From NCBI GenBank assembly GCA_028693155.1, contig JAQUVY010000005.1, positions 1-49,479 of the forward strand: 49,479 nt of DNA, in the 5' to 3' direction. This document shows positions 2,472 through 24,338 of the stretch, in pieces (within the stretch, counting starts at the first letter, position 1; every line of letters starts with the position of its first letter). Origin of the DNA: Eubacteriales bacterium. GTDB taxonomy: Bacteria > Bacillota > Clostridia > Christensenellales > UMGS416. The notes beneath the pieces were generated by a model. The model was given only the letters and a program-made list of their open reading frames with translations. It was not told the DNA's origin and did no database searches. A program made the translations under genes and the position numbers.

Positions 2472-3949
2472 AAAACGTATTGGCCATTGATTTGGGAGCG
2501 TCCAGCGGGCGAGGCATCCTGGGTACCCTGGACAACGGAAAGATCACACTGACAGAGGTATGCCGGTTCGACAATGAGCCTGTCCGCGTGGGCGGAACGC
2601 TTTATTGGGACATTTTGCGGCTGTATCACTGCATCAAACAGGGGTTGATCCAGGCCGACCGCATGGGCGGCTTTGACAGCGTGGGCATTGACACCTGGGG
2701 GGTGGATTACGGCCTGATCGCGCCGGATGGCGCACTGCTGGAAAACCCGGTGCATTACCGCGACACCCGCACCGACGGCATTGCCGACGAGGTGATTCAG
2801 CGAATCGGCGCGGAGGCGCTGTATGCCCAAAGCGGCACGCAGGTTTTGACCTTCAACACCCTTTTTCAGCTTATCGCGGGGCAGCGGCGTGCGCCCGGGC
2901 GGCTGGATGGCGCGCAGTGCATGCTGTTCATCCCCGATCTGCTCAACTATTTTCTAACCGGCAATCAGGTGGCCGAGCGCACCATCGCTTCCACCAGCCA
3001 GCTGTTGCGGGCCGACACCCGCGGATGGAACACGGAGCTGATGGAACGCATGGGCATCCCCACCTCCGTTTTGCCGCCGCTGGTGCCGCCGGGCACACAG
3101 GTGGGCATGCTGCAGGACGCGCTGTGCGAAGAGCTGCAGATCGCGCCCAGACCGGTGATCGCTGTGGCGGCGCACGACACGGCCAGCGCCGTGGCAGCCG
3201 TGCCCACCCGGGAGCGCGATTTCATTTACATTTCCTGCGGCACTTGGTCGCTGTTCGGCACCGAGCTGGACAGCCCCGTGTTGACGGCGCAGGCGCAGGC
3301 CTTTAACCTGACCAACGAGATGGGGTATCCCAACACCACGCGTTTTTTGAGCAACATCATCGGCATGTGGCTCATTCAGGAAACACGCCGGCAGTTCCGC
3401 CGCGAAGGGCGGGAATACAGTTATTCCCAAATGGAGCAAATGGCGCGGGGTGCCCAGCCCTTCCTGTGCCTCATCGACCCGGACGCCGCCGAGTTTGTGC
3501 CCCAGGGCAACATCCCCCGGCGCATTCGGGAGTATTGCCGGCGCACCGGGCAGACGATCCCCGAGGGGGATGCGCAGGTGATCCGCTGCATTTACGACAG
3601 CATTGCGCTGAAATATCGCCTTGCGCTGGGACGGGTGGAAAAGTGCACCGGACGCAAATATCACACCATCCACATGGTGGGCGGCGGCACCCAGGCCGAG
3701 CTGCTTTGCCAGCACACGGCCGATGCCACGGGCTGCCGCGTGGTGGCGGGGCCGGTGGAGGCGACTGCCATTGGCAACGTGGTGGTGCAGCTGATCTCTC
3801 AGGGTGCGCTGCGCGACCTCGCCGAGGCGCGTCAGGTGATCGCCGATTCGTTCGGTGTGAAGGAATATCTGCCGGATACGGCGCAAAAGGAGCTGTGGGT
3901 ACAGACCTTTGACCATTACCGGCATGACATCATAAAGACGGAAGAATAA
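2468..3949 (+). CDS. FGGY-family kinase, RhaB-like, probably acting as L-fuculokinase
   Basis: A 493-residue FGGY carbohydrate kinase starting at the ATG that overlaps the fucU stop. The sequence resembles rhamnulokinase throughout: DLGASSGRG near residue 10, [39 protein letters not shown], and a C-terminal [12 protein letters not shown]. In this operon it most likely phosphorylates L-fuculose, with a RhaB-type enzyme replacing the classical FucK. No rhamnose isomerase or rhamnulose-phosphate aldolase is present. The upstream in-frame extension to 2336 lies inside fucU and is not the real start. Substrate preference between fuculose and rhamnulose is not decided by sequence. Confidence 0.85.
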
Positions 3950-7030: not shown

Positions 7031-7867
7031 ATGAAGCTTCAGTATTTGGGTACGGCGGCGGCCGAGGCATTTCCCGCGCTGTTTTGCCAGTGCGAAACCT
7101 GCAAACGCGCCCGTGAAAAGGGCGGAAAAGACATCCGCGGGCGTTCGGGAGCGGTGCTGGATGATACGCTGATGATCGACTTTCCGCCGGACGTTTATCT
7201 GCACAGCCTGCGTTTCGGCATTGACCTGACCAAAATTGAGAATCTGATCGTGACGCACAGCCACATGGATCATTTTTGCCCGGTGGAGCTGAGCACGGCA
7301 TCGCCCGATTATTACGCCCACGGGATGCATCCCATCCATGTGTTCGGCAACGGGAACGTGGGCAAAAAACTGGAAAACGCCATGTTCGGCGAGTTCAAAA
7401 AGCCCGTGGATTTTGTGCCCTTTCAGCGCGTATACGGGTATCAGCCCTTTTCCGTGGGCGGTTATGAGGTAACGCCGCTGCCCGCTCTTCACGGCATGGG
7501 AGACCCCAGCGAGGACGCGTTTTTCTATCTCATCCGCAAGGACGGAAAAACGCTGCTGTATACCCATGACACGGGGATCTTTTTTGAACCGGTGTTTGCG
7601 TATCTGAAGGCGAACGCCGGGCATATTGATCTGGTCAGCCTGGATTGCACCTTTGGCAAGCTGCCAGACGGAGCAAACCATATGGGCATTCCCGATAATT
7701 TGGTGGTGAAGGCCCGTTTGGAGGAGCAGGGCAATGTGGACGCCTCCACGCGCTATATCATCAATCACTTTTCCCACAATTGCCACTCCATTCACGAAGA
7801 GCTGGAGGAAGAAGCGGCGAAGCACGGCTTCCTGGTGGCGTACGACGGAATGACTGTGGAAATTTGA
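7031..7867 (+). CDS. MBL-fold metallo-hydrolase (PhnP/Lactamase_B_2-like)
   Basis: A 278-residue metallo-beta-lactamase-fold protein. The metal motif THSHMDH is at residues 75-81, TALL-type strands follow, and YTHDTG gives a further metal ligand. HFSHN near the C terminus supplies the last His. A Cys pair near the start (CQCETCKRA) resembles the zinc-binding N terminus of PhnP-like phosphodiesterases, which points to a phosphoester substrate, but this is only family-level. ATG 7031 is used because GGGGGA lies before it; an in-frame ATG at 7013 has no ribosome site. The DUF1846 gene follows after 16 bases, so they are probably co-transcribed. Confidence 0.8.
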   Translation: MKLQYLGTAAAEAFPALFCQCETCKRAREKGGKDIRGRSGAVLDDTLMIDFPPDVYLHSLRFGIDLTKIENLIVTHSHMDHFCPVELSTASPDYYAHGMHPIHVFGNGNVGKKLENAMFGEFKKPVDFVPFQRVYGYQPFSVGGYEVTPLPALHGMGDPSEDAFFYLIRKDGKTLLYTHDTGIFFEPVFAYLKANAGHIDLVSLDCTFGKLPDGANHMGIPDNLVVKARLEEQGNVDASTRYIINHFSHNCHSIHEELEEEAAKHGFLVAYDGMTVEI

Positions 7868-11462: not shown

Positions 11463-13198
11463 GCGTTCACCTCCCGCTCGGTCTTGTTTGCCTGCTGGCG
11501 GTACAGCCGGGCATAGCGGCCGTCCAGCGCCATCAGGCTTTCGTGGTCGCCCTCTTCCGCAATGCGGCCGTGCTCCAAGAAGATGATATGGTCGCAGTGT
11601 TGCACCACCGAAATGCGGTGGGCGATGATAATGCCGCTGCGGCCGGAAAGCTCGGTGTGCAGATTGCGCAGAATCTCCTCCTCGGTTTCCGTATCCACCG
11701 CGCACAGCGCGTCGTCAAACAGGTAGAGGGCGGGGCGCTTGATGAGCGCCCGGGCAATGGAAATGCGCTGCTTTTGACCGCCCGAAAGATTCACGCCGCG
11801 GTCGCCCAGCATGGTTTCATAGCCCTCGGGGAAATCCATGATGTTATCGTGGATCCGGGCGATCTTCGCGGCGCGCTCCACGTCCTCATGGGTATAGCCC
11901 TCGGTGAAAAAGCGGATATTCTGCTCGATGGTATCGGAGAAGAGAAAGTTGTCCTGCGGGACGTAACCCATGTTTTCCCGCAGGCTGGCCAGCGGGTAAT
12001 CCATAATATCTTCGCCGTCCAGATAGATGGTGCCGCGCGGCACGTTGTAAAGCTTGAACAGCAGGCTGGCCAGGGTGGTTTTTCCGCTGCCGGTGTAGCC
12101 CAGAATGCCCAGCGTCTTGCCGGGCTCCAGGTGAAGGTTGATGTCCTTGAGCGCGGGAATGTCGCTATCGGGGTAGCAGAAGGTCAGGTGGCGAATGTCA
12201 ACTTCGCCGCGGGTCACCTGATGGGATGCATCGCCCGGGCCGTCAATGACCATCGGCTTTTCGCTCAAAATGGCATTCAGACGCTGATAGGAGGCCATGC
12301 CGCGCTGGAATACGTTGATGATGCGGGAGATGGACATGATGGGCATCATGATCATGGTCAGATACCCGTTGAAGGCCACCACGTCGCCCAGGGAGATCTG
12401 CCCGGCCTTGGCCAGCGCCGTGCCGTAAAAAATGCTGATGGCAAAGCTGATGCCGAAAAAGACCTGCACCAGGGGGTTGAACAGGGCGGAAATGCGCACC
12501 ATGCGGATGTTTGCCCGCTGCACCTTGCGGTTGAGCGCGCCAAAGCGCTCCACCTCGCTTTCCTCCTGCACATAGGTTTTGATCACGCGGATGCCGTTGA
12601 TGTTTTCATTTACCCGGTCGCTGACCTCGGAAAAGGTTTCCTGAACCTTGCGGAAGCGAATGCGCACCTGCTTGCCCATGAGCACAATGAACAAAATGAT
12701 GAACGGCACGGGGATCAGCGATACCAGCGTCAGCTTGAGGTTGATGCTGCCGGCCATGGAGGCGATGGACAGGGAGGCCACAGCCAGGCCGTTAAAGGTC
12801 ATGGCCATGCCCGGGCCGAAGGTCATGCGCACGGCGTTGATGTCGTTAATGGCGTAGGCGATGAGGTCGCCGGTTTTCTTGTGCTGAAAAAAATAGGGGT
12901 TTAGCGTTTGCAAATGAGAAAACAGCTCTTCCCGCAAAAAGCATTCCATGTTGCGCGCGTTGCCGTTGATGAAATGCCGCCAGCAAAAGCGAGCCAGGAA
13001 CGCGCCCACCGCCAGCCCCAATAGCAAAAAAATGCCGCTGCGCACGGCAACGTTGTCAATGGGTGACCCTTCCAGCAGGTCGAAAATTCGCCCCAGGGCT
13101 TTGGGAGTCTGGGTTTGCAGATAGCTGGAAATTGCCAGGAACAGCAGCCCGGGGATATACCTCCAGCCGTACTTTTTCAGGAATTTGATCAGAACCAA
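11459..13198 (-). CDS. Heterodimeric ABC exporter, half with degenerate ATP site
   Basis: A 579-residue type IV ABC exporter half (YheI/TM287-like). The N-terminal membrane domain spans about residues 1-310 and the ATPase domain about 330-575, with Walker A GYTGSGKTT and signature LSGGQKQR. Walker B reads LYLFDDALCAVD, with Asp in place of the catalytic Glu, which is typical of the degenerate half of heterodimeric exporters. The canonical site lies in the downstream partner, which here is broken. I prefer a TTG start at 13198, with GGGAGG five bases upstream; an ATG at 13234 has only a weak site. Substrate is unknown; drugs or lipids are common for the family. Confidence 0.88.
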   Translation of the reverse strand: MVLIKFLKKYGWRYIPGLLFLAISSYLQTQTPKALGRIFDLLEGSPIDNVAVRSGIFLLLGLAVGAFLARFCWRHFINGNARNMECFLREELFSHLQTLNPYFFQHKKTGDLIAYAINDINAVRMTFGPGMAMTFNGLAVASLSIASMAGSINLKLTLVSLIPVPFIILFIVLMGKQVRIRFRKVQETFSEVSDRVNENINGIRVIKTYVQEESEVERFGALNRKVQRANIRMVRISALFNPLVQVFFGISFAISIFYGTALAKAGQISLGDVVAFNGYLTMIMMPIMSISRIINVFQRGMASYQRLNAILSEKPMVIDGPGDASHQVTRGEVDIRHLTFCYPDSDIPALKDINLHLEPGKTLGILGYTGSGKTTLASLLFKLYNVPRGTIYLDGEDIMDYPLASLRENMGYVPQDNFLFSDTIEQNIRFFTEGYTHEDVERAAKIARIHDNIMDFPEGYETMLGDRGVNLSGGQKQRISIARALIKRPALYLFDDALCAVDTETEEEILRNLHTELSGRSGIIIAHRISVVQHCDHIIFLEHGRIAEEGDHESLMALDGRYARLYRQQANKTEREVNA

Positions 13199-13416: not shown

Positions 13417-14154
13417 ATGTTGATTACGGCGGAAATGCTGCTGGGGATCCTGCAAAAGCTGACGCTGGTGACGTCGGGCATCGAAAAGACTTCGTTTTTT
13501 CCGCAGCCGCTGTCCAGCGAAGAGGAAAAGGACTATGTGCAGCGCATGCTGGCGGGGGATAAGTGGGCTGCGGGGCAGCTGGTGGAGCGCAACCTAAGGC
13601 TGGTGGCGCACATCGCAAAAAAATATCGCGGCAACGGGCGCGACATGGACGATCTGGTGTCCATCGGCACCATTGGCCTGATGAAAGCGGTGAATACCTA
13701 CGACCCGGCAAAGAATATCAAGCTGGCCACCTACGCCGCCCGCTGCATTCAAAACGAGGTGCTCATGAGCATTCGCTCCAGCCGCAAGCTGCGCCGGGAG
13801 GTGTATATGGATGAGCCTATCGGCACCGACCACGAGGGCAACGAGATTTCATTGGCTGATGTATTGGGCACCGAGCAGGACGAGGTGGTGGAGTCGGTGG
13901 ATCTGCGCATCCGCACCGACCGGCTGGTCGACCTGGTGCGTCGGCTTCCGCCCCGGGAGCGGCGCATCATCAAAATGCGCTACGGGTTGGACGGCTGCCG
14001 CCGCATGACGCAAAAAGAAGTGGGCAGCGAGCTGGGGATCTCGCGCTCCTATGTTTCGCGGCGCGGATATGGCAAGCAGAAGAAAAAAGCCCCGGCGAGC
14101 CGGAGCTTAGCAAAGAACGGGAAACTGCGCATGAGGGCGGGCGCTTCGGCATAA
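13417..14154 (+). CDS. sigK: Sporulation sigma factor K, 5' part, interrupted by a DNA element after codon 215
   Basis: Residues 1-215 are a clear pro-sigma-K. A hydrophobic pro-sequence leads to FPQPLS at residues 28-33, the same distance as in B. subtilis. Region 2 (NLRLVAHIAKKYRG, LVSIGTIGLMKA, KLATYAARCIQNEVLM) and region 4 up to ISRSYVSR follow. Beyond Arg215 the family pattern stops and a 30-residue basic tail (RGYGKQ...) is read from the inserted element. This removes the last helix of region 4.2, so the integrated product should be inactive. The missing end (IEKKAISEL...) is encoded at 23506-23578. Excision would give a 238-residue protein, like the B. subtilis 241. ATG 13417 is chosen for its ribosome site. 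Sigma-K directs late mother-cell sporulation genes. Confidence 0.95.
   Translation: MLITAEMLLGILQKLTLVTSGIEKTSFFPQPLSSEEEKDYVQRMLAGDKWAAGQLVERNLRLVAHIAKKYRGNGRDMDDLVSIGTIGLMKAVNTYDPAKNIKLATYAARCIQNEVLMSIRSSRKLRREVYMDEPIGTDHEGNEISLADVLGTEQDEVVESVDLRIRTDRLVDLVRRLPPRERRIIKMRYGLDGCRRMTQKEVGSELGISRSYVSRRGYGKQKKKAPASRSLAKNGKLRMRAGASA
14031..14076 (+). other. Left attachment site of the sigK element
   Basis: The crossover core GTTTCGCG is at 14053-14060. The left half belongs to sigK. The right half, starting at 14061, contains GCGCGG (14061-14066) and TATGGCAAG (14068-14076). These are the inverted partners of sequences at the other end of the element. The site lies in sigK codons 213-215. Confidence 0.88.
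14083..14107 (-). terminator. Terminator of the element's minus-strand genes
   Basis: On the minus strand an 8-bp stem AGCTCCGG/CCGGGGCT (one T-G pair) with a CTCG loop is followed by six T. It lies inside the false tail of the interrupted sigK and shields sigK from convergent transcription. Confidence 0.8.
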
Positions 14155-14177
14155 ATTACCGGGGCGCTCATTCTTGC

Positions 14178-14399
14178 TTATCGGTGTGCTTTTGTTTTGA
14201 TCAGGTTTATCAAGAAAAACACCAGAAAAGCGGCAAGATAGCCAACAAGAAAATAGATAACAGCCTGTTTCCAGATGGGTGGCCATGTTTCGTTACAGAG
14301 ATTGCCGAAAAACAATCGCGGAAGCAGGCAGCCTCCTATCGTCGTTCCCACAGCAATTCCTGCCGCACTTTTCAGCGAAGCAATCAGTATTTTTTTCAT
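14178..14399 (-). CDS. Small membrane protein of unknown function
   Basis: A 73-residue protein with two predicted membrane segments, about residues 5-28 (glycine- and alanine-rich) and 43-66 (VIYFLVGYLAAFLVFFLIN), and a basic C terminus (KTKAHR). The ATG at 14399 has AAAGGA six bases upstream; an in-frame TTG at 14417 lies too close to its own purine-rich site. I do not recognise a family. It is the leftmost gene of the sigK element. Its DNA is more AT-rich than its neighbours. It could be a small holin-like or stress protein, but nothing proves this. Confidence 0.55.
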   Translation of the reverse strand: MKKILIASLKSAAGIAVGTTIGGCLLPRLFFGNLCNETWPPIWKQAVIYFLVGYLAAFLVFFLINLIKTKAHR

Positions 14400-14458
14400 A
14401 GCAATTCCTTTGACCAAACTCCTCGCGCAGGGCAGCGGTGCGGAGAAATGCTGCTTTT

Positions 14459-15118
14459 TTACACAAGCCCGAACGCTTTTTCGATGGCTTGCAGCATCTC
14501 CTCCACGGTGCCGTCTTGGGTGCGCACATAATAAGGCAGGCCGTACCGGGCAACTTCACCGGGCAGGAGAAGGGTTTTCCGCGGCGTGTCCCCCAACGCG
14601 ATCTGCCGCAGGCGCTGCGCCTTGGCCTCTTTTTGGGCGGGGGTCAAATCGGCGCGCCCGTAAATGTTTTCCAGCATGTTTGCGTGATCCGGCCGGTCGA
14701 AAAATTCTCGCTGCCCGATGGAGGGAGAAACAAACAGGCAAAACACATGCCCGGGAGGCGCGGCGGCGCAAAGCAGCGCCAAATCAATATCTCCCTCGCA
14801 AAGCACGCTTTCATGCTGCGCGGCCAGCTGCATCAGGTCGCACAGCATCATGGGCGTCATTTCGCGCACAATGTCCTTTTCCCACGCGCGCGCCTGGGCG
14901 GGGGTCAACGTGTCGGCGTCGGGCCGGGTCATGCAGGGCTGCCAGCGGCGCTGGGCGCGGGCAAAGTGCTCCCGGCGCATGGCGTCGCTGTCGTAAACGT
15001 ACATTCCGTATTTCTCCCGCAGCGCGCGGGCGGCGGTGCTTTTTCCCGCGCAGGAATCGCCTGTGAGGAAAAACACGTTTTGCAGGTGCTGGCGCAGGAT
15101 GTTGTTGGGAATGTTCAT
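14459..15118 (-). CDS. P-loop NTPase, kinase-like
   Basis: A 219-residue protein with a Walker A loop GDSCAGKST at residues 20-28 at the N terminus and YVYDSDAM as the next conserved strand. It resembles small-molecule kinases of the AAA_33/shikimate-kinase type, which transfer phosphate to a metabolite. The substrate cannot be read from the sequence. The start overlaps the stop of the upstream UroD-like gene by ATGA, so they are translationally coupled and may act on the same compound. It is the last gene of the sugar operon in the sigK element, after nagB-, pfkB- and GH4-type genes. Confidence 0.7.
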   Translation of the reverse strand: MNIPNNILRQHLQNVFFLTGDSCAGKSTAARALREKYGMYVYDSDAMRREHFARAQRRWQPCMTRPDADTLTPAQARAWEKDIVREMTPMMLCDLMQLAAQHESVLCEGDIDLALLCAAAPPGHVFCLFVSPSIGQREFFDRPDHANMLENIYGRADLTPAQKEAKAQRLRQIALGDTPRKTLLLPGEVARYGLPYYVRTQDGTVEEMLQAIEKAFGLV

Positions 15119-16176
15119 GCCAACCGGCCTTTTTCCGCAAAGCGTTCATAGACGCGGCGCACGTTTTCCGGGCGGGCGCCCGGGCCAAACTCGCATTGGG
15201 CAATGACACCGCCGTCTGCCCAGAGGGCTTCGTATACGGCATCCACCGCCTGCTCCACGTCCTGCGGGCTACCGGCGGGCAGCAGGTGCTGGCGGTCCAT
15301 CTCGCCCCAGAAGGTGATCTTTCCCCGGAAAGGCGCCAGATTTTTCACGCCCATGCAGAAAATTTGGCAATTGATGGCGTCCAGCCCGGCGTCAATGAGC
15401 TGCGGCAGGATCTTGAGTGTGTTGCCGTCCGAATGCATGAATGCCTTTTTGCCGTGCCGGTGGGCGATGTCGATATAATCGCGGTACAGCGGCAAAAAGA
15501 GCTTTTCCCACAGCGCCGGCGGGATGAGCAGATTGTTCTGCGCACCCCAGTCGTCCATGAAAAACAGCGCGTCGATGTCCGTTTGGGCATAGCGGGTGAG
15601 AAGCCTGCAATAAAAATCGTGCATCTGCGCCAGAAAATCCAGCATTTTCGGCGGCGGATCCATCAAATCCATATAAAGCAGGGGAGATGTGCGCAAAAAT
15701 TGCAGCCGCTCAAAGGGACGGGGCGTGACCGGGGTCAGCATGAATTTTTCCCCGGTGCACTGGGCATTGATGCAGCCCGGCTCAAAGCGCAGCCACTCTT
15801 CGGGAATGTGTACGTCGCAGGCGTCACTCCAGTCGTCGGCGCGGATCAGCGGCTCTTTCACCTCGCCGATGACGCCGCCGTGGATGTTGACAAAGGTGCA
15901 GCCCCAGGCGTCGCGGTATTCACCGACGGCGTAGGGATCTCCCGAAACGGCCGCTTCGTCCTGGCGGGCGTCTTTGCCGTGGGTCACGGCGGAAACGTCA
16001 GCCTGCGCGTTCAGCTGCGGATCGGGAGAAGAAAAATCCCAGGTGAAGTCACGCTGCAAAGCAGCAATGGCTTCGGGGTAGCGTGCCTGTGCCCAGGGCA
16101 GCGTCCATAAATCGCGGGGAACGCGCGCGGGGTTGGCACGGTTCAGCGCCGCGCAGACCAATTCACGGGAAGTCAT
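15115..16176 (-). CDS. Uroporphyrinogen decarboxylase-like (URO-D superfamily) protein
   Basis: A 353-residue URO-D superfamily protein (PF01208). The diagnostic C-terminal half is present: DDWGAQNNLLIPPALW and KKAFMHSDGN, followed by a GLDAINCQ strand. The N-terminal PVWxMRQAGR substrate motif of true HemE is absent, so this is not heme synthesis. Superfamily members include corrinoid methyltransferases such as MtaA, but no corrinoid protein is encoded nearby. Genes of this type often accompany sugar operons in Clostridia with unknown role. ATG 16176 has GGAGG eight bases upstream. It lies between nagB and a kinase-like gene. Confidence 0.8.
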   Translation of the reverse strand: MTSRELVCAALNRANPARVPRDLWTLPWAQARYPEAIAALQRDFTWDFSSPDPQLNAQADVSAVTHGKDARQDEAAVSGDPYAVGEYRDAWGCTFVNIHGGVIGEVKEPLIRADDWSDACDVHIPEEWLRFEPGCINAQCTGEKFMLTPVTPRPFERLQFLRTSPLLYMDLMDPPPKMLDFLAQMHDFYCRLLTRYAQTDIDALFFMDDWGAQNNLLIPPALWEKLFLPLYRDYIDIAHRHGKKAFMHSDGNTLKILPQLIDAGLDAINCQIFCMGVKNLAPFRGKITFWGEMDRQHLLPAGSPQDVEQAVDAVYEALWADGGVIAQCEFGPGARPENVRRVYERFAEKGRLA

Positions 16177-16204
16177 GGCAAGAACCTCCGTTATCATTAT
16201 TTTT

Positions 16205-16945
16205 TTAAGTACGGCGAATCTCCGGGGGAAGCTGCGCCGCCGCCGCTTCGTCTAAAAATACGCGCAGGTCGGGATGATCTGCAAGCAGGGATGCGGGAAC
16301 GGCGTCGGTGGGCGGCTGCGCCAGCGCGCGGTGCAAAATGGGCGCTTTGCGCGAGCCATCGGCCATGAGCACCAGCGTGCGGGCGGCCTTGAGCGTGCCC
16401 GCGCCGATGCTGACGCCCCACTGCACCGGCATAGGGGTGTCAAAATATTTGGCGGAAACGCTGCGCGTGGTGGCGTCCAGCTCTACGCGGATGCAGCCCA
16501 AGGACAGGCCGGTGCCGGGCTCGTTGAAGCCCACGTGGCCGTTCATCCCCAGCCCGAGCACGGTAAAGCCGATGCCGCCATGCGCCTCAATAAAGGCGCT
16601 GATGCGTGCGCACTCGGCTTCGGCGTCAGCATGGCCGTTCCATACGGCGCGCCGCTCCTCGGGAATGTGTGCCGGCTGGTAGAAATGCGCATCCATCACT
16701 TGCCGGCAGGAGCCGCGGGTCTCGCTGCCCAGCCCCATCCATTCGTCCAGCCCCACGTAAAACACGCTGGACAGATCGACCTCGCCCGCCGCCTGCATGT
16801 CCACCAGGCAGGCGTAGGCCGGCAGCGGGGTGTCTCCCGCGGCCAAACAAAGCAGGGAACCCGGGTTGCACCGAATAAATTCCGCGGCGCACCGGGCGAC
16901 GCGGACGGCATTTTCCCCGGCAGTGGGGCTGATAAACAGCTGCAT
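16205..16945 (-). CDS. nagB: Glucosamine-6-phosphate deaminase family protein
   Basis: A 246-residue NagB/6-phosphogluconolactonase-superfamily protein, near the 260 typical of NagB. It has SPTAGENAV, LAAGDTPLP, the active-site strand YVGLDEWMGL, and GLGMNGHVGFNEPG, which is diagnostic for NagB. The enzyme converts glucosamine-6-phosphate to fructose-6-phosphate and ammonia. The start at ATG 16945 follows AAAGGGA; longer upstream frames overlap the pfkB-like gene. Located in the sigK-element sugar operon, it suggests that the operon degrades an amino sugar or amino-sugar glycoside. Confidence 0.85.
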   Translation of the reverse strand: MQLFISPTAGENAVRVARCAAEFIRCNPGSLLCLAAGDTPLPAYACLVDMQAAGEVDLSSVFYVGLDEWMGLGSETRGSCRQVMDAHFYQPAHIPEERRAVWNGHADAEAECARISAFIEAHGGIGFTVLGLGMNGHVGFNEPGTGLSLGCIRVELDATTRSVSAKYFDTPMPVQWGVSIGAGTLKAARTLVLMADGSRKAPILHRALAQPPTDAVPASLLADHPDLRVFLDEAAAAQLPPEIRRT

Positions 16946-16965
16946 AAGAATCCCTTTCCGGCCTG

Positions 16966-18042
16966 TCAGGCCCACAAATCGGCGCACAAGGTCAGCTCCG
17001 CACCCAGCGCGCGGCGGGTGGGGGAGGCGGCGTTGCGCACATACAGCGAGGAGGAGGCGTTGCCCAGCGCCAGGCACGCGGCGGTATCCAGCCCGTAAAG
17101 CAGCCCCAGCAACACACCGGCGTTAAAATGGTCGCCGGCCCCGGTGAGGGTGAGGGGGCAGTCCGTGTAGCGGGTGGGCAGCGCAAAGCGCCCTGCGGCG
17201 TCGGCTGCCCAGGCAAAATGCGCGCTGTGCAGGATGACCAGATCGGCAACGCCCCAGCCAAGCAGCGCGGCGGGGCAATCTCCGGGCTCCTGCGGCGCGC
17301 TGCCCAGCGCCGCGCACAGGCGCTGGCTTTCTCCCTGGTTGGCCGAAAGCACCACCCGACCGTAGGGTCGGAAGCGCGCCAGAGCGAGCGCGTATTCCCG
17401 CACCTCGCCGTCGGTTCTGCCGCTCAGATCCGAGGGGTCAAAGAAAAAAAGTCGGGGAGCATTGGGCAGCCCGGGCAGCACGTCGCGCAAAACGCCGTTC
17501 AGCACATCCTGCATCCCGTCCAGCTCGCCGAAGTTAAAAATGCCGATGAGCGACGCCTGCGCATAGAGCCTGCGCAGCGTATCCAGCCCGGGATCGCGGC
17601 ACAGCGACGCCCAGTTCAGCGCGCTCAGGCAGCCCGGTTCGCCCAGAAACAGTTTGCCCTGGCCAAACTCCAGCGCCAGGGTAAGCCCGGGGTCGCCGAA
17701 ACTGAAAACTTCGCAGCCCTGCGCCAGCGGCGCAAAGGCCGGGTGTACCGCCGGCTGCCCCAGCGCACCCACGCAGGCCGCGTCGCAGCCAAAGCCGGCC
17801 AGCCCCAGCGCGGTGTTGGGCATGTTTCCTCCGGCGCGTGTCTGGGCGTTTTCCAGATTGACGGTAAAGCTGTGCTCCTGCCGGGAGAGTAAAACGTCGC
17901 CCAGCTCCTTCATCGTGTTCATCCGGCAGGGGCGGGTGATGCGGTCCACAAAGGCGTCAAACCCCAAAACGGCCTTGCCGATGGGCGCGCCGTCGCCCAG
18001 CAGACCGATCAGCGCGGGAAGACGCGCGGAAATGTTATACAT
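16966..18042 (-). CDS. PfkB-family carbohydrate kinase
   Basis: A 358-residue ribokinase/PfkB-family protein. The N-terminal GFDAFVDRI and GGNMPNTALGLAGFG (glycine-rich sugar-binding region) are followed near the C terminus by TGAGDHFNAGVL, the PfkB signature 2 with the catalytic Asp. It phosphorylates a sugar or nucleoside at the expense of ATP; the substrate is unknown. It sits 6 bases after the GH4 gene and is followed by nagB, so it may phosphorylate the monosaccharide released by the glycosidase. It is longer than ribokinase (about 310), with an extended N terminus. Confidence 0.82.
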   Translation of the reverse strand: MYNISARLPALIGLLGDGAPIGKAVLGFDAFVDRITRPCRMNTMKELGDVLLSRQEHSFTVNLENAQTRAGGNMPNTALGLAGFGCDAACVGALGQPAVHPAFAPLAQGCEVFSFGDPGLTLALEFGQGKLFLGEPGCLSALNWASLCRDPGLDTLRRLYAQASLIGIFNFGELDGMQDVLNGVLRDVLPGLPNAPRLFFFDPSDLSGRTDGEVREYALALARFRPYGRVVLSANQGESQRLCAALGSAPQEPGDCPAALLGWGVADLVILHSAHFAWAADAAGRFALPTRYTDCPLTLTGAGDHFNAGVLLGLLYGLDTAACLALGNASSSLYVRNAASPTRRALGAELTLCADLWA

Positions 18043-18048
18043 GGCGGC

Positions 18049-19440
18049 TTACCAGTGCAGCGGGGGCAGTATCTCGGCCTGCCGCGCGCACATTTCGTTG
18101 ATGAGGGCTACCGCGTTTTGATAATTGGATACGGTGGGATCCAGCAGCATGGCCTGCAGCAGTTTATTGCGCGACTGCTCCTCGTAGGCCTCGATGAGCA
18201 GCCGATGGATGGTGCCCTGGGTCTGTATCATGGAGGAGACGGCCAGCGGCAGCGCGGCGGTCTTTTGGGGGTGGATACCCGCGCCGTCCACCAGGGCGGG
18301 CAGCTCGATGACCATGCCTTGGGGCAGCGTGGGCGCGTAGCCCAGGTTGGGCATGTTCACCGCGCCGATGTGGGTGGGGATGTCAAAGGCGATGGCTTCG
18401 GCAATGGGGATGCCGTATTCGTTGGAGCCGGTCAGCTTGCCGTCGGCCAGCGTGAAGCGCTCGCGGAAGTCGGCCTGATCCGCCGCGGCACGGGCGCCTT
18501 CCTCGGGGAAAAGCGGGCGCGCCGTGGGGTTGGAGGAGAAGCTGTACACAAATTCTGGCACCTCGCCCCCCGCCCACGGGTCGCTGCGCACGGGGTCAAA
18601 GAAATACTGAATGCGGGTGCTGGCCAGCATTTCGTCGCTCCAGGCGATGTACTCGCCGATGTGATTGGTGCCGGGATAGGGATACAGCCCATAGGTGCGG
18701 AACATGAGGCGGCTTAAGCCCAGCTCATCCCAATGGGCGAGCCAGTCCATTTTTCCTTCCTTTTCACGCAGCAGCGGGTACAGATCCTCCCCGGTGCCGC
18801 GCCGCTCAATGCGGGTGAACCAGCCGAAATGATTCAGCCCCACCACATCGGTGTCCAGCTCTTCCTTGGGCATCTCCAGGATCTCCGCAAGCTGATCGCG
18901 CCCCATGCCTTCGCCGTGACACAGGCCCACCACCTTGATGGTGCTCAGCCGGGAGATGGCCTCCACCAGCTTGGCTTCGGGATTGGTGTAGTTAAGCAGC
19001 CACGCCTGGGGGCAGATTTTTTCCATGGTGTGGGCAATGTGCAGCATGGGCGGCAGATTGCGCAGCGTGTGAAACATCCCGCCGGGGCCGCCGTTTTCTC
19101 CGTATACCTGACGGAAGCCATAGCGGCGGGGAATGTGAAAGTCCATGGACCAGTAGCGATAACGATCCACCTCAATGGCGGTGATCACGAAATCCGCATC
19201 CTCCAGCGCGTCCTCCAGGCAGGTGGTAGCGCTCAGCGTCACGTCGCGCTTGGCAAAGGCGATGGCCTGGCGGGCAAAGGTTCCGCTGACCTTCAGCGCC
19301 ACCGGGTCGATGTCCATCAAAGCGATGGAAACCGGAACGGTGTGGATGCGGTCGCGCAGCAAAATGTCGGACAGGGTGGCGGGGCAGAAGCACACACTGC
19401 CGGCGCCGATGATGGCAAATTTGATCTTCTTCAGAGCCAT
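18049..19440 (-). CDS. Glycoside hydrolase family 4 (NAD- and metal-dependent)
   Basis: A 463-residue GH4 enzyme of typical length. The Rossmann motif IGAGSVCF is at residues 11-18. NYTNP (150-154), LCHGEG (with Cys174 and His175) and GLNHFGW (202-207) supply the metal and sugar-binding residues. GH4 enzymes cleave alpha- or beta-glycosides, sometimes phosphorylated, through NAD-dependent oxidation at C3 and Mn2+. CHG rather than CHS is seen in non-phospho alpha-galactosidase/alpha-glucuronidase-like groups, so an unphosphorylated substrate is possible, which would fit the kinase downstream. Cytoplasmic. It follows the ROK regulator by 30 bases. Confidence 0.88.
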   Translation of the reverse strand: MALKKIKFAIIGAGSVCFCPATLSDILLRDRIHTVPVSIALMDIDPVALKVSGTFARQAIAFAKRDVTLSATTCLEDALEDADFVITAIEVDRYRYWSMDFHIPRRYGFRQVYGENGGPGGMFHTLRNLPPMLHIAHTMEKICPQAWLLNYTNPEAKLVEAISRLSTIKVVGLCHGEGMGRDQLAEILEMPKEELDTDVVGLNHFGWFTRIERRGTGEDLYPLLREKEGKMDWLAHWDELGLSRLMFRTYGLYPYPGTNHIGEYIAWSDEMLASTRIQYFFDPVRSDPWAGGEVPEFVYSFSSNPTARPLFPEEGARAAADQADFRERFTLADGKLTGSNEYGIPIAEAIAFDIPTHIGAVNMPNLGYAPTLPQGMVIELPALVDGAGIHPQKTAALPLAVSSMIQTQGTIHRLLIEAYEEQSRNKLLQAMLLDPTVSNYQNAVALINEMCARQAEILPPLHW

Positions 19441-19470
19441 GTCGGGTTCTCCTTCATCGTTTTGTTTGGG

Positions 19471-20598
19471 TCACATGGAAAATTTCTTCAAAAAGGGAAG
19501 TCCCTGCTGGCGCAGGGTCTCCAAAAAGCGCTGCCGCAAAGTAAGGTTCAGGCCAAAAAGACCTGCGTGCGGGCACCGCGCCGTTTCCACCTGCAATTCC
19601 AGCGGCACCAGGGGTTGCGCGTCGGCCTGTATGCGCTGCGCAAGCGCGTCCCCCAGCAGATCGGTCAGCTCGCCGCCCAAGGTGATAAGGGGAATATCCC
19701 CTGCGATGGCCAGCCCGGCCACACAGGGAGAAAGCGCCTGGGAAATATAGCGCAGCAGCGCTTCGCGCTGCTCCTGCGTGGGCGCGCGCAGCGCCTTGGC
19801 GCCAAAGCGTTCCTCCAGGGCGCTGCGGCAGACGCTCTCCTGAAGCGTGCCGGTGGGCAGGCGCATATAGCCGATTTCTCCGGCCAGGTTTCGCCCGCCC
19901 CGGCGCAGCTTGCCGGATAAAATGATGCCGCAGCCCACACCTGCGCCCAGCGTGACAAAGGCCATGTCGCTGTCCGCCGCCAAATCTCGAAAGGCGAACT
20001 CACCCAGCGCTTGGGCGTTTACGTCGTTTTCCAGCCGCACCGGCGCTTCCAGCTGCGCCGAAAGCGTCTCGATCCAGGGATGAAGATCGGCAGGCTGGGA
20101 CAACCCTAAAATATCCGTATCCAGCAGAAAATCTCGCTGAGGATCCAGCGCGGCGGGCAGCCCGATGCCCAGACCCGCCAGGCGGCGCGGCGAAACGTCT
20201 GCTTCGGCCAACATGCCCGCCACCAGATCGGGAAGCTGCTCCAGCAGCAATCCACGCAGATCGCGCCAGGGAGACACGCGGCGGCAGGCCAGCATTTGCC
20301 CGCGCAGATCCAGCAGACCGGCCTGCAGGCGCTCGCCCTCGTGCAGCACGGCGGCCTGCACGGCAAAGCCGGTGCGCAGGTGCAGCGCGGTGGGGCTGCG
20401 CCCCACCCGCTTCAGGCGCGTTTCCTCCTCGGTAACCAGACCGCAGGACGTAAAGTCTTCGATGATGCGGGTCACGGTGGCGGCGCTGATGCCGGTGAGA
20501 TGACTCAGCTCGACCTGGGAAACGCCGTCCCGCTCCAGCAGATGCTTAAAAATGCGCACACGGTTGTCGTTGCGCAAATGAATGGCGCCCTGTCCCAT
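19471..20598 (-). CDS. ROK-family (NagC/XylR-type) transcriptional regulator
   Basis: A 375-residue ROK repressor. The N-terminal winged helix is at about residues 10-65 (VSQVELSHLTGISAATVTRIIEDF). The ROK domain follows, with LENDVNAQALGEF and GAGVGCGIILSGKLRRGGRNLAGEIGY segments. The usual ROK zinc motif (CxCGxxGCxE) is absent: only ESVCRSAL remains, so it is probably a sensor without kinase activity. ATG 20598 follows GGGAGGTGA. The longer frame to 20649 reads through the operator. It probably represses the GH4/pfkB/nagB operon and itself, with a sugar or sugar phosphate as inducer. Confidence 0.87.
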   Translation of the reverse strand: MGQGAIHLRNDNRVRIFKHLLERDGVSQVELSHLTGISAATVTRIIEDFTSCGLVTEEETRLKRVGRSPTALHLRTGFAVQAAVLHEGERLQAGLLDLRGQMLACRRVSPWRDLRGLLLEQLPDLVAGMLAEADVSPRRLAGLGIGLPAALDPQRDFLLDTDILGLSQPADLHPWIETLSAQLEAPVRLENDVNAQALGEFAFRDLAADSDMAFVTLGAGVGCGIILSGKLRRGGRNLAGEIGYMRLPTGTLQESVCRSALEERFGAKALRAPTQEQREALLRYISQALSPCVAGLAIAGDIPLITLGGELTDLLGDALAQRIQADAQPLVPLELQVETARCPHAGLFGLNLTLRQRFLETLRQQGLPFLKKFSM

Positions 20599-20612
20599 GG
20601 CGATCACCTCCC

Positions 20613-20637
20613 GAAAATAATTACTTTCATCATGAAA
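20613..20637. promoter_or_regulatory. Putative ROK operator: two overlapping palindromes
   Basis: GAAAATAATTACTTTC (20613-20628; palindromic except one base pair) overlaps the perfect TTTCATCATGAAA (20625-20637). They lie just upstream of the ribosome site of the ROK gene, in an otherwise GC-rich setting. The ROK regulator is the obvious binder, by inference. Confidence 0.6.
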
Positions 20638-20687
20638 TGAATATAGCAAAGCGCAGTGCGCTTGTCAAGTGGGCTGCGGGGGAACAG

Positions 20688-20723
20688 CACTGCGCCACCC
20701 CGGAGGCGGGATGGCGCAGCGTG
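20688..20723 (-). terminator. Strong hairpin after the right-hand UroD-like gene
   Basis: CTGCGCCA (20690-20697) pairs with TGGCGCAG (20712-20719), with CCC/GGG inside. It lies immediately after the stop of the UroD-like gene but lacks a T-run on the minus strand. It may be an attenuator or an RNA-processing stem that sets different levels for the genes on either side. A second small hairpin, AAGCGC/GCGCTT, is at 20649-20663. Confidence 0.45.
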
Positions 20724-20725
20724 TG

Positions 20726-21706
20726 TTACTTCTTTGCCCAGCGGTCGCATGCCAGAAAGGCTTCCAGCATCCAGCGCTTCTTTTCCAGCGGCACGCCGAT
20801 GGCTTCTCCGTCGCCATAATCGCTTAGGATGAAGCCGCCGTTGTCCGTTCCCCAGCGGTCGATCAGCAGCGCCGCCTCTTCCTCAATATCCGCCTTCCCC
20901 TTAAGGGGCAGCGTGTGCTGAATGTCACACAGCGAGACAAAGCACATGCGCCCCGCAAACTGCGCGCCCACTTCCTCAATGCCCAGCACTCTGGGCTGCT
21001 GCAGGTTCATGGCGTCCAACCCCAGGTCGATAAAGGGCTGGATAAACCGGTTGACCTTGCCGCAGGAATGCAGCTTGATAAGCCAGCCGGCCTTGTGGCA
21101 GGCGTCAAAAATGCGGCGGTATCGCGGCGCGAAAAACTCCTCAAACAGCGCCGGCGAAATGAAGGTGTTCAGCTCGGTTCCCCAGTCGTCGGTAAAGCCG
21201 ATGCCGTCGATGGCTCCGGGAAAGCGCGAGGAAATATTTTCAATGATGCGCAGGTCGTACTCCACGATGCGGTCGGCCAGCATCTCGATTTTTTCGCGCT
21301 CCAGATAGAGATCCTCCAGCGTGTTTTGAAACCCGCGCAGCGCGTGCATCCGTTCAAAGAGCACCATGAAGATGGAGGTCTCGATAAACTTGTCGCCTCC
21401 GGCGGCGATGCGCTCCTCCATGCCTTCGTACAGCGAGGGATCGTCAGGATCGGGCCAGCGCAGGTGTGCCAGCTTGTCCCAGCTGTCCAGCGGGTGACCG
21501 GTGACCAGCCCCATGTTTTTGACGTCCGAGCGCTGCCAGACGCAGCCCCATTCGTCCAGCGTTTTTTTCTGGCTGACGTCGCCTGTGCCGATCTGGTTCC
21601 AGTTGGCGCTGTGATAATCGGTGAGACCCAGAAGGGGAATATCCAGCGGGAGGCGCTCGGGGCGCTGAAAGGTCATGGCTGCCCGCACGATCTGTTTGCT
21701 GGTCAT
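20726..21706 (-). CDS. Uroporphyrinogen decarboxylase-like protein (second copy in the element)
   Basis: A 326-residue URO-D superfamily protein with DDWGTELNTFISPALFEEFF, the conserved LIKLHSCGKVNRF, and a GLDAMNLQQ strand. As in its paralogue at 15115-16176, the HemE N-terminal arginine motif is missing. LHSCGK retains Cys where the paralogue has Asp (MHSDGN). In methyltransferase members of this superfamily His and Cys at this place bind zinc, so this copy may bind zinc. The start at ATG 21706 follows AGGAGAGCC. It is the first gene of the minus-strand cargo and is divergent from the recombinase unit. Confidence 0.8.
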   Translation of the reverse strand: MTSKQIVRAAMTFQRPERLPLDIPLLGLTDYHSANWNQIGTGDVSQKKTLDEWGCVWQRSDVKNMGLVTGHPLDSWDKLAHLRWPDPDDPSLYEGMEERIAAGGDKFIETSIFMVLFERMHALRGFQNTLEDLYLEREKIEMLADRIVEYDLRIIENISSRFPGAIDGIGFTDDWGTELNTFISPALFEEFFAPRYRRIFDACHKAGWLIKLHSCGKVNRFIQPFIDLGLDAMNLQQPRVLGIEEVGAQFAGRMCFVSLCDIQHTLPLKGKADIEEEAALLIDRWGTDNGGFILSDYGDGEAIGVPLEKKRWMLEAFLACDRWAKK

Positions 21707-21806
21707 AAAAAGGCTCTCCTTTTGTCTGCGGCAAAGCGCGTTTTTTTTAAGCGTAACCGCACCGGCAGCAGAAATCAATATCTTTGCAAAAAAATGTTGC
21801 CTGCGG

Positions 21807-21837
21807 TCCATCTTCTCCGGTCCCTGCGCGTATAAAT
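21807..21837 (+). promoter_or_regulatory. Possible sigma-E-type promoter of the recombinase unit
   Basis: TCCATCTT (21807-21814) and CGTATAAAT (21829-21837) are separated by 14 bp. This roughly fits the mother-cell sigma-E pattern (about GTCATATT, 13-15 bp, CATACAAT), with mismatches in both boxes. No sigma-A -35 is found at normal distance from TATAAA. Mother-cell expression is what a sigK-element recombinase would need. Tentative. Confidence 0.4.
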
Positions 21838-21864
21838 AAGGAAAAAGCATGGGGGAGGATACCG

Positions 21865-21996
21865 ATGGGAGAGCGTGGGGAGATCAGGGTGGTTTGGGAG
21901 GAGCAGCCACCGGCGCAATGGAAGGAGCTGTTTCGCCGGGGCTTTGCGGCCTACGCAAAGCGGGCGTGGGAGGCGCGCGGACATGAGCGGGAATAG
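21865..21996 (+). CDS. Small 43-residue protein, candidate recombination directionality factor
   Basis: A 43-codon ORF with an excellent ribosome site (GGGGGAGG six bases before ATG 21865). Its last 14 bases overlap the start of the serine recombinase gene. The product is charged and tryptophan-rich (VVWEEQPPAQWKELFRRGFAAYAKRAWEARGHERE) and probably forms one amphipathic helix. I recognise no family. Large serine recombinases need a separate directionality factor to excise, and the C. difficile skin element encodes a small one. Position and coupling make this the candidate here; function is inferred only from that. Confidence 0.6.
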   Translation: MGERGEIRVVWEEQPPAQWKELFRRGFAAYAKRAWEARGHERE

Positions 21997-23578
21997 CTGC
22001 CGACGCGCCGGACTTTACATCCGCCTGTCCCGGGAGGACGCGGGCGAGGGCGAATCCCAGAGCGTTACCAACCAACGCGCGCTGCTGGGGGATGCGGCGG
22101 CGCAGCTGGGTGTCGAGGCGGTGGATACTTATATAGACGACGGGTACAGCGGCACAAACTTTGACCGCCCCGCCTTTCAGCGTATGCTGAAGGATATTCG
22201 CGCCGGGAAGATCGACATGGTGATGACCAAGGATATGTCGCGCCTGGGCAGGGATTACATCGACACGGGGTATTATCTGGAAAAATTTTTTCCCCGCTGG
22301 GGCGTGCGCTATGTATCCCTCCTGGACGGCGTGGACACGGCGGTGGACTCGTCGGCCAACGACATCACCCCCTTCCGCGCCCTTTTGAACGATCTGTATG
22401 CCCGGGATATTTCCCGAAAAATCATCGCCGTCAAGCGGGATAAGCAGAAGCGCGGGTTGTTTATCGGTGGCAAGGCACCCTACGGATACCGCATGGACGC
22501 CCGGCAGAAAAACCACATCGTGCCCGACCCGGAGGCGGCGGAGGTGGTGCGGCAGGTCTTTGCCATGGCCGGGCAGGGGGAGTCGTGCACCGGCATCGCC
22601 CGGCACCTTACAAAGCGCGACGTGCCCTCCCCGGCGGTCTACGCCGGTCTGCGCAGGGATGGGGTGTGGAGCGGCGAGCGAATCGCCGATATGTTGAGAA
22701 ACCGTGTTTATCTGGGCGAAATGGTGCAGGGAAAGAGCCGCCGGCTGAGCTACAAAACCAAGGTGTCCCGCCGCCTGCCGCCCCGAGAGTGGGCGGTGGT
22801 GCCGGGCACGCATGAGCCGCTGGTCGATCAGGCCTGCTTTGCCCAGGCGCAGCGCCGCCTGCAGGCACGGGCGCGCACCCGCCGCAGAACCTACGATCAC
22901 CCGCTGAAGGGCTTGCTGCGCTGCGCGGTGTGCGGCCGCCCGCTGGGGCTGGTCAACCGCCCGGGAAAGGACGGCCGGGAGAAGCTTTATTTTATCTGCC
23001 GTGCCTGCCAGAAAACGGGCAAAGCGCCGCTGGGCGCGGCGCAGCGGATCGCCCGGGCGCTGGCGGAGAAGATGGAGCTGCTGGTGAAGGAGAATTTGAG
23101 CCGGGCCGAGGGCGAGGCGTTGGCGCAGGAGGTGGCGCGGGCGGAAAACGGATGCGGCGATGCCGACCGTACCCGCGCCGAGCTGCAGGCGCTCAATGGG
23201 CAGATTCAGCGCGCCTATTTGGCGCGGCTGGATGAAGAGCTGGAGCAGGCGGACTTTCTTCGCATTTATACGGCGATGAAAAAGCGCAGAGCCGAGCTGG
23301 AAAAACGTGCGCAGGCGGCGCGGGAGACGCCCTGCGCCTCAGACTGGGCGCAGGATACGGTGCGGGCGTTCTTTCGCGGCGGGTATGCGCAGGGGGACTT
23401 TCTGACCGACGTGCTGGAAAAGGCCGAGCTGGGAGCGGATAAAACGCTGCGCCTGACCTTACGCGCCCCTGCCGACTTGCCATACCCGCGCCGCGCAGTT
23501 TCGCGCATCGAGAAAAAAGCCATCAGCGAGCTGAACCGGGCATTTTCCCCCGAGACAGACGGGAACGAAAAGACTTGA
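21983..23578 (+). CDS. Large serine recombinase (SpoIVCA-like), ending in the sigK 3' codons
   Basis: A 531-residue large serine recombinase. The resolvase domain (about residues 9-150) has catalytic Ser16 in YIRLSRED and DMSRLGRD (84-91). The recombinase domain (about 160-265) begins GGKAPYGYR. A zinc ribbon has Cys314/317 and Cys339/342, followed by a coiled-coil region (about 355-450). From codon 508 the frame runs through the attachment core, and residues 509-531 (IEKKAISELNRAF...) are the sigma-K C terminus. After excision, the circular form would instead end in the 30-residue RGYGKQ tail (538 residues). ATG 21983 follows GGGAGG. Upstream in-frame sequence overlaps the small ORF. It probably excises the element in the mother cell. 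Confidence 0.93.
   Translation: MSGNSCRRAGLYIRLSREDAGEGESQSVTNQRALLGDAAAQLGVEAVDTYIDDGYSGTNFDRPAFQRMLKDIRAGKIDMVMTKDMSRLGRDYIDTGYYLEKFFPRWGVRYVSLLDGVDTAVDSSANDITPFRALLNDLYARDISRKIIAVKRDKQKRGLFIGGKAPYGYRMDARQKNHIVPDPEAAEVVRQVFAMAGQGESCTGIARHLTKRDVPSPAVYAGLRRDGVWSGERIADMLRNRVYLGEMVQGKSRRLSYKTKVSRRLPPREWAVVPGTHEPLVDQACFAQAQRRLQARARTRRRTYDHPLKGLLRCAVCGRPLGLVNRPGKDGREKLYFICRACQKTGKAPLGAAQRIARALAEKMELLVKENLSRAEGEALAQEVARAENGCGDADRTRAELQALNGQIQRAYLARLDEELEQADFLRIYTAMKKRRAELEKRAQAARETPCASDWAQDTVRAFFRGGYAQGDFLTDVLEKAELGADKTLRLTLRAPADLPYPRRAVSRIEKKAISELNRAFSPETDGNEKT
23476..23520 (+). other. Right attachment site of the sigK element
   Basis: Core GTTTCGCG is at 23498-23505. The element side contains CTTGCCATA (23476-23484) and CCGCGCCGCG (23486-23495), inverted partners of sequences at the left end. 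The sigK side begins CATCGAGA. All of this lies within the recombinase coding frame. Confidence 0.88.
23506..23578 (+). CDS. sigK: sigK 3' part (codons 215-238), shared with the recombinase 3' end
   Basis: Base 23506 is the third base of the restored Arg215 codon (CGC). Then come 23 codons and TGA, encoding IEKKAISELNRAFSPETDGNEKT. The IEKKA helix matches the end of region 4.2 in sigma-K (B. subtilis has SRIEKRALMK). The frame is the same as that of the recombinase that reads through it. The two sigK parts lie in the same orientation, as needed for restoration by deletion. Confidence 0.92.
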
Positions 23579-23642: not shown

Positions 23643-24338
23643 ATGATTCGTACTTATGATGAACTGTGCCGCGCGGTGGCCGAGTACGGTTTCCTCTTTT
23701 TAAGCGATCCCGGCGGCGGCGTGCCTTCTCTGAGCGCGTTGACGGCGGGCAACGCCTGGCACACCGGGGACGCGCAAACCGATCCCTGGTGCTGGAAAAA
23801 CCGCTATGCCGCCGGGCACGACGGCGCGTACGGCGCGCTGCTGCGGAAAAGCCAGGCCTTTATTTCCGGTGAGATGCTGCCGGCCTTTTTCGCGCTGCGG
23901 CGTTGGGAGGCTTCCCGCGAGGCGCTTTATGAGGCGGGGGAGCTGTCCACGGCGGAAAATCTGGTGTGGCAGGCGGTGGAGCGTTTTACGGTGCTGGATA
24001 CGGTGCGCCTGCATGAAATTGCCCGCTCGCAGGACATCTCCCCCGGGCGATGTGACGGCGCGCTAAAAAATCTGCAGGAGCACTTTGTGATCTCCCTCAC
24101 GGGCAGCACCCGGCGGCGCAACGCCAAGGGGGAGCCCTATGGCTGGAGCGTGGGCGTTTACGAAATGAGCCAAAGCTGGCTGCAGCCTTTTTTAAAGAAG
24201 GTGCCCGGCTGCCGGGAGGCGGCGGATCGGGTGCTGCGCGCGGGACGGCGTGCCGCGCCGACGCTCAGCGATGCGCGCCTGGCCGCGCTGCTCGATCTGC
24301 CTGCGCAATACTGTAACGACGGAAAGGAATCCAAATGA
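23643..24338 (+). CDS. AlkZ-related protein (winged-helix, DNA glycosylase-like fragment)
   Basis: A 231-residue protein resembling the 'AlkZ-related' family of Firmicutes: EYGFLFL...PSLSAL near the start, TDPWCWKNRYA at about residues 45-56, then ENLVWQAVERFTVLDTVRLHEIA and STRRRNAKGEPYGWSV, which look like winged-helix elements. The family is named for similarity to part of the AlkZ alkyl-purine glycosylase fold; enzymatic activity has not been assigned to my knowledge. There is no signal peptide. It is the first gene right of the sigK 3' end and overlaps the next gene by ATGA. Family call is from memory of the pattern. Confidence 0.55.
   Translation: MIRTYDELCRAVAEYGFLFLSDPGGGVPSLSALTAGNAWHTGDAQTDPWCWKNRYAAGHDGAYGALLRKSQAFISGEMLPAFFALRRWEASREALYEAGELSTAENLVWQAVERFTVLDTVRLHEIARSQDISPGRCDGALKNLQEHFVISLTGSTRRRNAKGEPYGWSVGVYEMSQSWLQPFLKKVPGCREAADRVLRAGRRAAPTLSDARLAALLDLPAQYCNDGKESK

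Follow-up and report, generated by a model that had tools for sequence, protein, structure and literature searches.

The sporulation sigma factor gene sigK of an Eubacteriales bacterium (Christensenellales; UMGS416) is split in two by a 9,445-bp element that carries its own large serine recombinase. The DNA analyzed here, referred to as the window, is a stretch of 49,479 nucleotides (positions 1 to 49,479 of contig JAQUVY010000005.1, assembly GCA_028693155.1), and we conclude that it very probably contains a skin-type, sigK-intervening element at codon Val213, which its own recombinase would excise to restore sigma-K. The element belongs to a large family of elements that split the same codon in other Clostridia. 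The features on which this conclusion is built are as follows.

13417..14061, + strand: sigK 5' part, codons 1-215, matching SigK to residue 215 and followed by unrelated sequence.
14030..14078, + strand: attL, made up of a sigK half-site, the core GTTTCGCG at 14053-14060 with its central GT at 14053-14054, and the element arm GCGCGGATATGGCAAG; the core is shared with attR and the arm is complementary to the attR arm.
21983..23578, + strand: large serine recombinase with resolvase, recombinase and zinc-ribbon domains (PF00239, PF07508, PF13408).
23476..23530, + strand: attR, made up of the element arm CTTGCCATACCCGCGC, the core GTTTCGCG at 23498-23505 and a sigK half-site; identified by the shared core and complementary arm.
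23498..23578, + strand: sigK 3' part, V-S-R-IEKKAISELNRAFSPETDGNEKT and stop codon; the joined product scores above the TIGR02846 cut-off.

The interrupted sigK open reading frame (ORF) continues into the element as far as a stop at 14154, and the end that it lacks is found at 23507-23578 on the same strand. Copies of GTTTCGCG stand at 14053 and 23498, a spacing of 9,445 bp, and joining 13417..14052 to 23498..23578 yields an ORF of 238 amino acids with the C-terminal end SRSYVSRIEKKAISELNRAFSPETDGNEKT, the insertion point being nucleotide 637 of sigK, in codon Val213. The joined protein scored 303.7 bits on TIGR02846 (spore_sigmaK), above the curated cut-off of 298.65 bits, whereas the interrupted 5' ORF alone reached 285.0 bits and its match ended at residue 215. 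A sequence-only reading of this DNA had proposed a sigK split by a 9,445-bp element between 8-bp repeats, a frame that follows the family to Arg215 and then diverges, and a deletion that restores a 238-residue sigma-K; coordinates, frame and repeat all proved exact, and the family scores bear out the other two points.

The same reading likened the element to skin, and this too gained support: a separate intact sigK was sought in the assembly (93.9% complete) and none was found. Across the genome a sigma-70 search returned ten matches, of which the split gene alone matched SigK at E ≤ 1e-40. A sigE gene is present, truncated by a contig end and adjoining sigG, and sigF lies beside spoIIAA- and spoIIAB-like genes (sigF and sigG were assigned from position and sequence, without a separate family scan). 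With sigE, sigF and sigG present, the organism still has those regulators of sporulation that would make use of sigma-K.

The 8-bp repeat was rejected as decisive evidence on its own because a third copy of GTTTCGCG occurs in the window at 34912. What makes the site convincing is a dyad centered on the GT together with the same codon split in many other genomes. Joined on paper, the circle junction reads CTTGCCATACCCGCGCCGCGCA-GT-TTCGCGGCGCGGATATGGCAAG, a 46-bp dyad whose arms match at 17 of 20 positions (20/25) about the center set by the repeat; only 4 of the ~49,440 centers in the window score at least 17/20. Serine-integrase attP sites have symmetric arms and a central dinucleotide common to both partners (cf. 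the discussion of the gin element, PMC5595907), and the dyad formed by the element ends is, judging by its sequence, of the form expected of such an attP. The predicted attB string is CGCTCCTATGTTTCGCGCATCGAG and the predicted attP string CCGCGCAGTTTCGCGGCGCGGATATG. The best placement of the crossover is this GT, the first two bases of codon Val213, with the shared core supplying Ser214 and Arg215. At this place sigma-K reads SYVSRIEK and sigma-E reads SYISRLEK, with an Ile codon ATT in place of GTN; the central dinucleotide in sigma-E is thus AT, not GT, and this difference may be what spares the paralogue from the recombinase.

The recombinase carries all three domains plus a conserved YIRLS motif. 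A point beyond the sequence-only reading, as is the membership in a same-codon family, is that its frame extends into the sigK tail, passing through attR and ending at the sigK stop codon. The nearest solved structures by sequence are the TnpX N-terminal domain (2mhc, 8.8e-37) and SprA/YokA (9dxh, 1.4e-28), and the best annotated plasmid match is TndX at 34.6% identity; TnpX/TndX and SprA-type recombinases are thus the nearest by sequence but, unlike the window recombinase, are not sigK-specific. A phage or plasmid origin of the recombinase was considered and rejected, the best matches listed having ~30-40% identity and none of all matches reaching 60%.

Among 121 relatives, recombinases of this clade were restricted to the window genome, G001 and G054 (481-1133 bits; next 264), and all of them lie in sigK. 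The window recombinase is 48-51% identical to those of G001 and G054, and the dyad center in both is the same GT. In G001, the sole other genome of the genus, sigK (contig C192) breaks off at the same codon; the tail, VSRIEKKAIAELNRAF, is found on contig C173, 5' of the same downstream AlkZ-related gene. The G001 recombinase stands at the opposite end of the element and the cargo differs from that of the window, which points to a sigK site that was refilled or rearranged within one genus. By eye, the G001 cargo (L039 and L072, on C192 and C173) includes SLH-like, GGDEF-like, GH26-like and epimerase genes.

In G054, from another family of the order, a 7.6-kb element (L060, G054 contig C42, reverse strand) splits sigK at the same codon, with the attL GT at 45, the attR GT at 7683 and an internal dyad at 2727. 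This internal dyad is likewise complete and attP-like (20/25) and adjoins the 3' fragment of a recombinase gene; its right arm is identical to the attL right arm over 25 bp, as expected if one element inserted beside another; the arrangement suggests that G054 may hold two elements inserted in tandem. An uninterrupted sigK, sought among relatives as the sequence-only reading had advised, was found in G029, a congener of G054. Contig ends near att sites were also considered as a sign of mixed excised and integrated DNA, an idea that was dropped: G054 contigs C8 and C42 abut with ~6 bp in common and without k-mer overlap at the core.

Scanning all of GTDB with the recombinases of the window, G001 and G054 extended the family well beyond the order; the best 80 of at least 540 relatives were examined. 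The recombinase ends shortly 5' of a sigK tail in 60 of these 80 and is inverted, beside the sigK 5' part, in another 12; in L120 and L143 it lies near the left end of the element, bringing the total in split sigK to 74/80. Not counted in sigK are six of the 80, among them L102 and L157, in which the contig ends inside an att arm; L135, L166 and L167 are likewise outside the 74. Both ends were recovered in 11 loci, with elements of 3.8-9.8 kb and dyads centered on GT in 11/11 (16-20 of 25), a set for which GT was demanded at both ends and in which 10-kb flanks favor short elements; the attP consensus of these complete elements is near CGTTTACAATAGGCGCGGCGCTAT-GT-ATCGCGCCGCCGCTAATGTAAACG. Among 393 evenly drawn Clostridia genomes, 27 gave a recombinase match at E ≤ 1e-110. 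Eight of the nine matches of at least 520 bits in this sample adjoin sigK, and none of those at or below 462 bits has sigK within the flanks examined.

At least 12 other loci have both sigK halves on a single contig, isolates among them (Blautia wexlerae MSK.20.46, L144; Pseudoflavonifractor capillosus An827, L151). Further isolates that carry the family are Oscillibacter valericigenes An907 (L145), Caproicibacter fermentans EA1 (L100) and Anaeromassilibacillus sp. An200 (L171). The hosts are dozens of gut bacteria, including Christensenella-like, Oscillospiraceae and Lachnospiraceae members, again with isolates. The recombinases of L144 (B. wexlerae) and L125 (an Oscillospiraceae metagenome-assembled genome) are 96.1% identical, versus 50.3% for the sigma-K 5' parts, which in each locus are on the same contig as the recombinase. 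This disparity indicates that the elements move horizontally, and transfer between the two lineages would be its simplest explanation. Both orientations were seen at the same GT (L107, L113 and L129 versus L112, L124 and L144); on the recombinase strand, the attP center reads GT or AC depending on the member. L160 (Anaerotruncus colihominis JM4-15) has an attP-like dyad at 11603, after a recombinase of the clade, and no sigK part within the flanks examined; it is possibly a tandem or relocated element.

Directly 5' of the recombinase, a protein of ~42 residues is encoded in 71 of 76 readable loci, a count that is partly circular, as many of the loci were profile seeds. Its consensus is V-x-C-x-Y-x-x-x-G ... 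SF-x-x-FL-x-R-EL. The small ORFs of G001 and G054 pass a leave-one-out profile test, and six viral loci that were not among the seeds also match the profile. The ORF was absent 5' of 17 other serine recombinases from relatives and was found in 2 of 21 more distant clade neighbors; searches of Pfam, PHROGs and PDB gave nothing meaningful, and no library names the family. Known directionality factors are small proteins encoded by their own element and dissimilar among themselves (PMC10747680, PMC5025042), and on this ground we consider the ~42-residue protein of the relatives a likely candidate directionality factor. The window has an ORF in the same position:

21865..21996, + strand: 43-amino-acid ORF overlapping the recombinase start, placed as the ~42-amino-acid ORF of relatives; homology not demonstrated.

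This ORF was rejected as a proven homologue, its 5.9e-8 match having come from the inclusion of its own sequence among the seeds, with no match in the leave-one-out test. Upstream of the small ORF, 49 of 60 loci have CATAnnnT, which we take to be a −10 of the sigma-E/sigma-K type, against 6.5 in shuffles (maximum 15), although the loci are related and the shuffle therefore overstates the significance of the count. The box was tested as CATA[CTG]; the T found four bases further along (41/49) is an independent outcome. A GGCAA(A/G) motif lies ~17-21 nt 5' of CATAnnnT in relatives. A strict sigma-E pattern that included the −35 ATA showed no clear enrichment; only the CATAnnnT −10 and GGCAA(A/G) are conserved in relatives, and the window does not show them clearly.

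Taken together, the most probable course of events would be the following. The element stays in place in vegetative cells and along the spore line, with sigK broken as the sequence shows. During sporulation the large serine recombinase would join attL to attR at the central GT, releasing a 9,445-bp circle and restoring the 238-residue sigma-K, a product predicted on paper. Excision would most likely occur in the doomed mother cell, a timing suggested by what is known of skin elements and by the CATAnnnT box 5' of the recombinase operon in relatives, and the spore would consequently retain the element and its sugar-use genes. In relatives the ~42-residue protein would likely set the direction of excision. 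For the family as a whole we lean, with moderate confidence, towards horizontally spreading, mostly non-phage islands specialized on one sigK codon in many Clostridia. Such islands would exact little fitness price because they would leave only in the mother cell; the site may thus offer a sheltered berth for exchangeable sugar-use, biosynthesis and defense genes, with a ~42-residue directionality factor encoded in the recombinase operon under mother-cell promoters.

Several points weigh against excision of the window element as described. The genome is a draft of 175 contigs, 93.9% complete; the recombinase frame reads on into the sigK tail here, a fusion seen in 0/82 relatives that might affect function; and the 43-amino-acid ORF fails the leave-one-out test, while the promoter region is without a clear CATAnnnT box. 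The fused recombinase C-terminus and the divergence of small ORF and promoter from the family pattern would also fit a dead insertion, in which the element disrupted sigK, cannot leave, and the strain has lost late sporulation. Nonetheless, a dead split gene should decay, whereas the recombinase is open and complete, both sigK parts are in frame and free of stops, the tail is still family-like, the att arms are still 17/20 complementary and the sporulation sigma factors are kept, and we therefore regard a dead insertion as improbable. The draft state of the genome, and ends that share only 8 bp, could instead be read as an assembly artefact that joined unrelated pieces so that sigK only appears split. 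This is scarcely credible: the same split recurs in at least 12 other loci whose two sigK halves share a contig, isolate contigs included, and a dyad across both ends would not come from mis-joining.

An ordinary integrative element might, alternatively, excise constantly and without direction or developmental control, sporulation then resting on the few cells without the element. The near-exclusive targeting of a sporulation gene and the sigma-E/K-type −10 box conserved 5' of the excision operon in relatives make this unlikely, although horizontal movement between lineages and the integrase-type anatomy would suit it, and CD1231 of Clostridioides difficile is constitutively expressed (PMC5025042).

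Skin elements are known from Bacillus subtilis, C. difficile, Clostridium tetani, Clostridium perfringens phage phiS63, the Bacillus cereus group and Alicyclobacillus (PMC5025042, PMC5553647, PMC10745906, PMC13141910), and there are precedents for gene-intervening elements of non-phage type (PMC10745906, PMC5595907). In clostridia, skin has been reported absent except in C. difficile and one C. tetani strain (PMC3789829, 2013) and has been termed an exception (PMC5025042, 2016); in contrast to this status, elements of a single recombinase clade interrupt sigK at a single codon in many Clostridia genomes. We found no description of a codon-213 sigK recombinase family in the literature searched, subscription papers being mostly outside the search.

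The C. difficile skin (recombinase CD1231, recombination directionality factor CD1234; PMC5025042, PMC3789829) resembles the window in its split sigK, its single large serine recombinase directly 5' of the sigK 3' part, and a long imperfect inverted repeat with a short core at the att sites; the likeness is to the published description of its layout and att sites. Its excised circle and restored sigK have been reported (PMC5025042, PMC3789829). It differs in being ~14 kb with 19 genes and called prophage-like, whereas the window element has 9.4 kb and sugar-metabolism genes, and in having a directionality factor of 72 amino acids under sigma-E/SpoIIID, whereas any small protein in the window adjoins the recombinase. 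The B. subtilis skin (SpoIVCA; PMC10745906, PMC5025042) likewise has its own large serine recombinase in a split sigK, restored in the mother cell. However, it is 48 kb and prophage-like with the recombinase beside the sigK 5' part, while the window element has no phage genes and carries its recombinase next to the 3' part, in the sigK direction; inverted codon-213 family members have a layout resembling that of B. subtilis. Island IV of the B. cereus group (22 kb; PMC10745906) is, like the window element, a non-phage island in sigK, and its excision has been shown experimentally. The insertion place differs (nucleotide 195 in island IV, 423 in AH820 and 637 in the window), as do size and cargo. 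The gin element in gerE of B. cereus ATCC10987 (PMC5595907) is also non-phage and sporulation-specific, with serine recombinases and a small accessory factor, but has another target gene, 28.6 kb and three recombinase genes.

Tools that score sporulation via an intact sigK would misread genomes of this kind. With the same site, both orientations, unrelated cargo and horizontal transfer, the family lends itself naturally to testing why mobile DNA settles in genes for sporulation. It also provides many matched attP, attB, recombinase and small-ORF sets for the study of direction choice by serine integrases, and its GT/AC orientation pairs offer a natural way to test whether orientation is set by the central dinucleotide alone.

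The cargo of the window element comprises seven genes, mostly of sugar-metabolism type and all on the minus strand. These and the remaining features are listed below.

14178..14402, − strand: small hydrophobic ORF just inside attL, no family, from the ORF list only.
14459..15118, − strand: P-loop kinase-like protein (cargo), weak AAA_33 and CoaE-like matches.
15115..16197, − strand: URO-D/MtaA-fold methyltransferase-like protein (cargo), PF01208 above cut-off.
16205..16945, − strand: glucosamine-6-phosphate deaminase-type isomerase (cargo), PF01182 and NCBIfam NagB-type models, below equivalog cut-offs.
16966..18042, − strand: ketohexokinase/PfkB-type sugar kinase (cargo), PF25270 and PF00294.
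18049..19440, − strand: family 4 glycoside hydrolase (cargo), PF02056 and PF11975.
19471..20649, − strand: ROK-family regulator (cargo), PF00480 and a winged helix.
20726..21706, − strand: second URO-D-fold protein (cargo), PF01208.
23643..24338, + strand: flanking chromosomal AlkZ-related gene (PF24741), used as the marker for finding the sigK tail in G001, where contig C173 has the same gene order.

No phage structural or packaging genes were found in the element, only the recombinase having strong PHROGs matches. The family 4 glycoside hydrolase gene has no counterpart at E ≤ 1e-80 in 60 relatives, the sole same-genus genome included. The G+C content of the element (62.4%) is close to that of its flanks (60.1%). 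The product of 14178-14402 (MKKILIASLKSAAGIAVG...) is hydrophobic and probably a membrane protein.

Cargo across the 11 complete elements is diverse, including shikimate-pathway enzymes (L153), a GH2 mannosidase-type enzyme (L126) and a LysR regulator with a dicarboxylate transporter (L113). Anti-phage protein families also occur as cargo (KwaB, Pycsar cyclase [PycC] with PycTM, SoFic, PtuA, SIR2 and PDC-type), which suggests that sigK may be an overlooked defense-island site; carriers of defense families in sigK are L115, L112, L124, L125, L144 and L151. Some family members are catalogued as viral contigs, namely L216, L217, L218, L219 and L221 in IMG/VR and MT836298.1 (H39). L218 and L221 show the sigK tail, and in H39 (2678-3241) the sigK match ends at residue 215, so that sigK-borne islands may be miscounted as phages.

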